From assembly GCA_947462255.1 (NCBI GenBank), contig CANHOA010000004.1:62001-126000 (forward strand): a stretch of DNA of 64,000 nt, read 5' to 3'. Source of the stretch: Flavobacteriales bacterium (GTDB lineage Bacteria > Bacteroidota > Bacteroidia > Flavobacteriales_D > Crocinitomicaceae). A model generated the notes under the pieces. That model worked only from the letters and a program-made list of their open reading frames with translations, was not told the DNA's origin and searched no databases. Both the position numbers and the translations under genes were made by a program. This document shows positions 5,531 through 5,858 of this stretch, piece after piece (the stretch's first letter is position 1; each line of letters starts with the position of its first letter).

Positions 5531-5785
5531 AGATATTGCGGGGTGAGTTCCGAAGTTTCGGGAGTAGCTCGTCGGATGAAAAACCCGACAAAGAAATTAA
5601 AATAAAGCAATATAGAGATATTGCGGGGTGAGTCCCGAAGTTTCGGGAGTAGCTCGTCGGTTGAAACCCGACAAAAAAATAAAATAGAGCAATAAAAAGA
5701 TATTGCGGGGTGAGTCCCGAAGTTTCGGGAGTAGCTCGTCGGTTGAAACCCGACAAAAAAATAAAATAGAGCAATAAAAAGATAT
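5531..5785 (+). repeat. Three tandem half-tRNA-like repeats upstream of tRNA-fMet
   Basis: Three units begin at the GCGG positions 5538, 5623 and 5705 (spacing 85, 82, and then 82 to the real tRNA). Each starts with TTGCGGGGTG as in the tRNA, has a 7-bp perfect palindrome TCCCGAA-GT-TTCGGGA (one mismatch in unit 1) where the tRNA has its D loop, keeps TAGCTCGTCGG, and ends in an anticodon-arm-like hairpin. In units 2 and 3 this is GTCGG-TTGAAAC-CCGAC, a 7-base loop with T33 and a GAA triplet at the anticodon position. The T arm and 3' acceptor strand are missing and replaced by about 30 AT-rich bases. Confidence 0.85.
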
Positions 5786-5858
5786 TGCGGGGTGGAGCAG
5801 TTGGTAGCTCGTCGGGCTCATAACCCGAAGGTCATCGGTTCGAGTCCGGTCCCCGCTA
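5786..5858 (+). tRNA. Initiator tRNA-fMet (anticodon CAT)
   Basis: The cloverleaf folds fully: acceptor bases 1-7 TGCGGGG pair with CCCCGCT apart from position 1-72 (T-T), D arm GAGC/GCTC, anticodon arm TCGGG-CTCATAA-CCCGA, variable loop AGGTC, T arm ATCGG-TTCGAGT-CCGGT, discriminator A. An unpaired 1-72 and three consecutive G-C pairs in the anticodon stem are hallmarks of initiator tRNA. CCA is not encoded. It is the intact fourth unit of the repeat array upstream. Confidence 0.95.

Follow-up and report, generated by a model that had tools for sequence, protein, structure and literature searches.

Palindrome-capped copies of a tRNA 5′ half in tandem upstream of tRNA-fMet and other tRNA genes in Bacteroidota

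Directly upstream of the tRNA-fMet gene in the window (the whole 64,000-nucleotide stretch analysed, from a Flavobacteriales bacterium of the Crocinitomicaceae) lie three partial copies of that gene's leader and 5′ half, in each of which a palindrome takes the place of the D-loop. The phenomenon is real and repeated, and the observation behind the original prediction is confirmed. The array is more than a chance arrangement, since the same arrangement precedes tRNA-fMet in other species. Its most probable origin, which we hold with some confidence, is a recurrent tandem duplication of leader and tRNA 5′ half in which the copies are marked by a palindrome and the last copy stays functional. In this model, the stretch made up of the tRNA-fMet leader and the gene's 5′ half would have been amplified in tandem at its own locus; every amplified copy has a GC-rich palindrome where the D-loop should be, and the 3′-most, palindrome-free copy would remain the working tRNA. 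The fMet array would then be one case of a recurrent process acting on many tRNA genes in the Crocinitomicaceae and some other Bacteroidota. The copies are presumably transcribed within the pre-tRNA leader and removed during 5′ maturation, and would have no essential function.

At the level of sequence, the comparisons below establish the anatomy of the copies, their match to their own neighbour and their recurrence, and they show that one palindrome family is dispersed and often in tandem. No insertion event was caught in the genomes compared, and compensatory changes that hint at selection on the RNA count against the duplication model. The open-access literature that we searched, which mostly excludes subscription journals and preprints, yielded no description of such arrays. 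They offer a testable system for the spread of short palindromes, for tandem duplication at hairpins, and for the effects of pre-tRNA leaders on maturation.

Anatomy of the array in the window

The original prediction of three 82–85 bp units before tRNA-fMet, mirroring the tRNA start, the remains of the D-stem and the anticodon arm and missing the T arm and the acceptor 3′ strand, was borne out at 5533–5781. The leader and 5′ half of the adjoining tRNA-fMet are copied in all three units, which begin with ATATTGCGGGGTG and retain GTAGCTCGTCGG. The tRNA features found in each are the 5′ end (TGCGGGGTG), the second D-stem strand (GTAGCTC) and an anticodon-like arm, and all lack a T arm and a 3′ acceptor strand. 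Units 2 and 3 are the same sequence, base for base. The features are as follows.

5489–5496, forward strand: promoter-like box TATCTTTG (from the sequence; similar boxes in relatives)
5533–5617, forward strand: unit 1 (85 bp), partial copy of leader and 5′ half of tRNA-fMet, capped by a palindrome
5548–5563, no strand: palindrome TTCCGAAGTTTCGGGA in the D-loop place of unit 1
5571–5589, forward strand: anticodon-like arm of unit 1 with a 9-nt loop (from the fold)
5618–5699, forward strand: unit 2 (82 bp)
5633–5648, no strand: palindrome TCCCGAAGTTTCGGGA in the D-loop place of unit 2
5656–5672, forward strand: anticodon-like arm of unit 2, loop TTGAAAC (from the fold)
5700–5781, forward strand: unit 3 (82 bp), same sequence as unit 2
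5715–5730, no strand: palindrome TCCCGAAGTTTCGGGA in the D-loop place of unit 3
5738–5754, forward strand: anticodon-like arm of unit 3, loop TTGAAAC (from the fold)
5786–5859, forward strand: intact tRNA-Met(CAT), probably the initiator; last copy, without palindrome (ARAGORN, Rfam)
5869–5900, forward strand: hairpin followed by a T run, probable terminator of the tRNA transcript (from the fold of the presumed transcript)

A palindrome instead of the D loop, as had been proposed, is present in all three units, that of unit 1 being a one-base variant with one wobble. The 7-nt loop TTGAAAC attributed to units 2 and 3 lies at 5661–5667 and 5743–5749. The units fold better than their shuffled counterparts (z −3.2, −4.4 and −4.4), as does the presumed transcript from 5503 to 5900 (z −7.2).

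ARAGORN identifies 5786–5859 as tRNA-Met(CAT), and we infer that it is the initiator from a U1–U72 mismatch and three G–C pairs in the anticodon stem, both traits of initiator tRNAs. It is the only tRNA that ARAGORN and Rfam RF00005 call in the region, with no call in the units. At the gathering scores of Rfam 15 the units are likewise unmatched, and the window gives tRNA and RNase P only. The RNase P RNA, of bacterial class A, lies at 38433–38814 (248.8 bits).

The box expected ahead of unit 1 is present about 40 nt upstream of it, and, judged by the consensus, TATCTTTG is probably a Bacteroidota-type promoter −7 box. In relatives, boxes like TATCTTTG or TACCTTTG stand ahead of arrays and of most array-free leaders. 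The gene upstream of the array in the window is PorP/SprF-like. An excess of GC palindromes in the window as a whole was considered and set aside; with 20 entries against 8–15 in five simulated sequences it is weak, because 4 of the 20 are the array's own.

Recurrence at tRNA-fMet and at other tRNA genes

Related units beside tRNA-fMet in other genomes, whose absence had been named beforehand as evidence against the original prediction, occur in 18 of the 67 genus genomes in which tRNA-fMet was detected (67 of 86), with 1–5 units each. The other 49 have no array, giving a copy number range of 0–5. The search combined a DNA search with a covariance model built from 22 units, the latter having been proposed at the outset, and gave matches in 18 of the 86 genus genomes. 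One of these, in G064, adjoins tRNA-His and was left out of the fMet count, and the eighteenth array, in G069, has other palindromes and was recognized by reading. At E values up to 1 the DNA search matched 80 of the 86 genomes, mostly in short A-rich stretches as judged from the query ranges, and only those of its matches confirmed by the covariance model or by reading were used. Of 54 leaders read, at 230 nt each, 7 had units and 47 had none.

The fMet arrays comprise several sequence types. The G069 copy has the same TGCGAGG start as G069's own tRNA, and G056 has a tRNA with that start and no copy. The copies in g8 and g17, two genera with two genomes each, are longer, retain T-arm sequence and carry a second palindrome in the anticodon/variable region. 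Repeated duplication, one of the origins first suggested for the array, is upheld by the 0–5 copies seen between species of one genus, by copies that match their own genome's tRNA, and by the existence of these longer forms. As far as sequence comparison can tell, this suggests that fMet arrays have repeatedly arisen locally, been amplified and been lost. Loss of the CAT anticodon was rejected as a rule: it holds for units of the main three sequence types, but CAT is retained in the copies of G011, g8/g17 and G069. In some relatives (L004, L006 and L010) the terminator loops 3′ of tRNA-fMet are capped by palindromes. In the A-rich tail that leads from the last arm to the next tRNA start, AATTGAAAT is frequent, both in units (L009–L016) and in copies (L136, L141 and L168), and the copies whose tails bear it belong to different tRNAs.

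A processing or decoy RNA had also been suggested. A decoy for tRNA-fMet-specific enzymes or toxins was rejected as the main reading, since many other tRNAs are preceded by copies of the same design. This design consists of a tRNA head, a palindromic D-loop, a short tail and then the intact cognate tRNA. Comparison of the 30 tRNAs of the window genome with their flanks located it before Arg(tct), Ala(ggc), Gly(gcc) and another CAT tRNA in addition to tRNA-fMet. More widely, it precedes Ala, Arg, Met, Gly, Val, Lys and Phe genes, in the Crocinitomicaceae, in certain other Bacteroidota and in a single genome of the Ignavibacteriales.

Within the family, the pattern 'TAGCT + TCC..GGA' has 115 matches, spread over 72 of 240 genomes and 14 of 24 genera, and the reversed pattern has 27. 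We opened 111 of the 115, leaving out two in G078 and one each in G079 and G084, and found 91 to be palindromic (arm of at least 5 bp) and 20 non-palindromic. A same-strand tRNA lies 15–180 nt downstream of 62 of the 91 palindromic matches, compared with none of the 20 non-palindromic ones. Among the other 29 palindromic matches are some at contig ends, some in longer tRNA copies and some in coding or unrelated intergenic sequence. The nearest tRNAs in the 62 cases are Arg(tct) (21), Met(cat) (15), Ala (12), Gly(gcc) (6), Arg(acg) (3), Arg(tcg) (3), Lys (1) and Val (1). The head is identical to that of the neighbouring tRNA in 49 of the 62, and heads differ on average by 0.34 mismatches from their own tRNA (61 full heads), compared with 3.18 from different heads of the same isotype in other genomes.

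A wider scan with TAGCTCN{0,2}TCCGCCNNGGCGGA, taking one genome per species for 84,980 species, gave 88 matches in 74 stretches. A same-strand tRNA lies within 400 nt downstream of 39 of them, all in Bacteroidota, judged by record title, except one in Ignavibacteriales (L311). In the stretches examined, matches outside these two groups had no tRNA within 600 nt, and Bacteroidota matches without a nearby tRNA also occur (L256, L279, L291, L294 and L310), which speaks against a strict rule. Other Bacteroidota add Phe and Gly(tcc) to the tRNAs concerned (L288, L295 and L314). Three near-full-length copies with a D-loop palindrome (the second matches of L283 and L309, plus L302) sit downstream of a tRNA of the same isotype.

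To see the copies without requiring a palindrome, we surveyed three genomes for any 12-mer from the first 20 bases of a tRNA that recurs within 300 nt upstream; in the second and third genome this took in 30 of 32 and 28 of 32 known tRNAs, namely those in the fetched stretches. Such 5′ copies stand upstream of 4/30, 4/30 and 2/28 tRNAs, and the same 12-mers recur downstream for 1, 0 and 0. In eight of the ten copies, the L142 copy included, the D region holds a palindrome with an arm of 6 bp or more; in L142 TCCGCCGCGGCGGA is present although the script named another hairpin. The other two, L373 and L393, have weaker hairpins only. The fMet array was missed by this survey because its identical head is too short.

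Copies of tRNA 3′ ends, 13–19 nt long, were found in the same genomes downstream of 7/30, 5/30 and 1/28 tRNAs, with 0, 0 and 0 in the upstream control, and they may have an origin different from that of the 5′ copies. These 3′ copies, and the frequent origin of partial tRNA copies in integration (PMC9897764), favour reading the arrays as scars or decoys of integrative elements that use a tRNA gene as attachment site. The likeness lies in incomplete copies beside an intact cognate tRNA. Unlike the partial tRNA genes left by such elements, however, the array copies the 5′ half, lies upstream, consists of tandem units that abut without an intervening element, and carries a D-loop palindrome; moreover, none of three neighbouring window proteins tested is an integrase. 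We regard such an origin as highly improbable, and tRNA-flanking repeats should not be taken for integration scars by default.

Several observations concern sequences 3′ of tRNA genes. A 15-nt near-copy of the tRNA-fMet 3′ end (TCCTGTCCCCGCTAC) lies in the window at 6054–6068, about 200 bp downstream of the gene, and G020 has a 17-nt near-copy at its own tRNA-fMet (L084). In the window genome, plain 3′-end copies also follow Val, Lys, Ser, Arg and Leu tRNAs. At L137 and L360, copies of the tRNA-Phe 3′ half downstream of the gene have TCCGCCTAGGCGGA or TCCGCCGCGGCGGA in the T-loop. Behind tRNA-Ser(gct) in L136 (502–708) are two tandem 103-bp units; the last 17 nt of each copy the tRNA's 3′ end, and each also contains an inverted copy of that tRNA's T-arm sequence. 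Similar stretches rich in GAGCGAGAGCG follow several tRNA genes (window 5900–6000, L135, L144, L148 and L152).

Folding models and selection on the RNA

Half copies have arisen again and again upstream of essential tRNA genes in these bacteria. In the folding model they endanger the real tRNA, and the copies that are found nearly always have a D-arm palindrome. The head of a unit is the tRNA's own 5′ strand and therefore can pair with the tRNA's 3′ acceptor strand. For the window tRNA, the model gives a native acceptor pairing of 0.995 when it is folded by itself, 0.51 behind one or two units, 0.33 behind three and 0.47–0.52 in the presumed transcript. When one window unit is given the native D-arm, the value is 0.002, compared with 0.51 for the natural unit.

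Across units, the 38 of 54 distinct units whose replaced bases could be identified were folded; the window's unit, one of the other 16, was modelled separately. The D-loop bases replaced are GTT in 13 of the 38 and other stretches of 2–9 nt in the rest. Mean native pairing is 0.255 for natural units, 0.124 with a native D-loop (Wilcoxon 3e-6) and 0.148 with a scrambled palindrome (p 0.01). The corresponding medians are 0.027, 0.001 and 0.025, so that natural and scrambled palindromes hardly differ by median. Two units (L063 and L212) run opposite to the tolerance model. The folding model omits modified bases, proteins and folding during transcription; in it Ala tRNAs misfold even alone, and the T arm of the window tRNA is not predicted even alone. 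Within this modelling, a plain upstream 5′-half copy would be a competitor for the 3′ acceptor strand of the real tRNA, a palindrome-extended hairpin would lower that competition, and palindrome-bearing copies would therefore be the tolerated ones. The model thus weakly suggests that the palindrome makes the 3′ strand of the real tRNA less prone to capture and that capped copies are tolerated.

The alternative of a selected cis-acting leader RNA, whose units act on the folding or maturation of the next tRNA by exchange between head and 5′ strand or by spacing or protecting the precursor, draws on the same models: the head equals the tRNA 5′ strand, and one to three units divert half or more of the modelled acceptor pairing. 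It also draws on the arms themselves, in which some changes are compensatory. In fMet units, TTGGG/CCCAA (L044) stands against TCGGG/CCCGA, and ATCGG/CTGAT (one unit of L006) against GTCGG/CCGAC. A model-fitted alignment, which leans towards structure, has changes on both sides in 6 of 19 pairs, more than in any of 500 shuffles. In a plain alignment, paired cells make up a larger share and the covariation score is higher than in any shuffle, but the number of pairs with changes on both sides, 2, is reached in 405 of 500 shuffles, and that of further pair types in 499 of 500. Compensatory changes, proposed at the outset as a check on the palindrome, are present in the arms but few, and the two alignments together give a mixed picture of selection on the RNA.

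Pairing of head and tail in a closing stem is not a general trait of the units (Fisher p 0.98 over 54 distinct units); a single copy, which precedes a CAT tRNA (L363, in G020), stands out (p 0.007). The stem ATTGC/GCAAT was likewise rejected as a general feature, GCAAT..ATTGC being present in several unit-free leaders. The closing stem thus arises at least in part from the duplication itself, since its sequence occurs in unit-free leaders and head-to-tail pairing is not general. The lack of general pairing, the recurrence of the design at many tRNAs with differing tails, the plain-alignment count of pairs changed on both sides, and the absence of an array from 49 of the 67 genus genomes where tRNA-fMet was detected, with 0–5 copies overall, all argue against a selected leader RNA, which we consider rather unlikely.

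Dispersed palindromes and known repeat systems

One family of the palindromes behaves as a dispersed repeat. In four copy-bearing genomes TCCGCCNNGGCGGA occurs 20 (window genome), 27, 18 and 75 times. It occurs once in G135, whose Arg copy carries TCCCGATAGCTATCGGGA, and was not found in two genus members chosen for having no 'TAGCT + TCC..GGA' match. The reversed TCCGCCNNGGCGGA pattern was absent from all seven genomes counted. Among the copies listed, 17 of 24 in G020 (where 27 exist) and 16 of 50 in G141 (where 75 exist) have a TCCGCCNNGGCGGA neighbour within 160 bp, compared with random expectations of about 0.07 and 0.18, respectively; the tRNA arrays add to the observed clustering. The window's own palindrome, of the TCCCGA type, is rare in its genome, with 8 places within one mismatch, of which 3 are the array.

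It is conceivable, though on balance doubtful, that mobile Bacteroidota palindromes home in on loops in genes that form hairpins (D- and T-loops of tRNAs, terminators), that landing in a tRNA gene leaves tandem 5′-half copies and a regenerated intact gene, and that the capped copies act in cis on the folding or maturation of the following tRNA.

REP elements with RAYT transposases are short dispersed palindromes, often clustered, and the dispersal of TCCGCCNNGGCGGA in many copies resembles them; the TCCCGA type, at only 8 places, does so less. A further reading takes the palindromes as REP-like substrates mobilized by a RAYT/Y1 transposase, with tRNA genes as preferred targets. In its favour, Y1_Tnp proteins are present in 131 of 240 family genomes, including one protein in the window's genome. 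Within the genus, 18 genomes have both copies and Y1_Tnp, 11 copies only, 13 Y1_Tnp only and 44 neither (odds ratio 5.5, p 0.0007), a tally that ignores common descent and includes one copy-bearing genome, G078, that was not read. However, the 11 copy-bearing genomes without a Y1_Tnp match tell against this reading, as does the flanking of Y1_Tnp loci here by other palindromes, or by none of the array type. The Y1_Tnp gene of the window genome (L322, 1244–2067) has CAACCC..GGGTTG repeats nearby, and none of 8 scanned Y1_Tnp loci has an array-type TCC..GGA palindrome, one of them (L323) having a non-palindromic pattern match. Mobilization by RAYT consequently appears improbable to us.

Rickettsia palindromic elements are likewise dispersed palindromes settling inside genes, but are larger and mainly known from protein genes. 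SMR-A of Haloquadratum walsbyi is a family of short non-coding repeats that settle preferentially in the palindromes of other elements, without target duplication (PMC3119063). It differs in its length of about 110 bp with terminal inverted repeats, its archaeal host and in being unconnected to tRNA genes.

A similar order of units also occurs outside tRNA genes. At L398 (1501–1640), a non-tRNA site, a 68-bp hairpin unit is repeated with a palindrome in its loop, and the next unit has CAAAAG instead, which is the order seen at tRNAs, with the last copy intact. Tandem palindrome-bearing hairpin units of 68–86 bp lie away from recognized tRNAs at L398, L400 and L406, and at L406 one stem is altered on both sides between units. 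Elsewhere, at L100 (1501 and 2052), TCCCGAA..TTCGGGA forms the tips of two long hairpins about 550 bp apart, which to our eye resemble integron attC sites.
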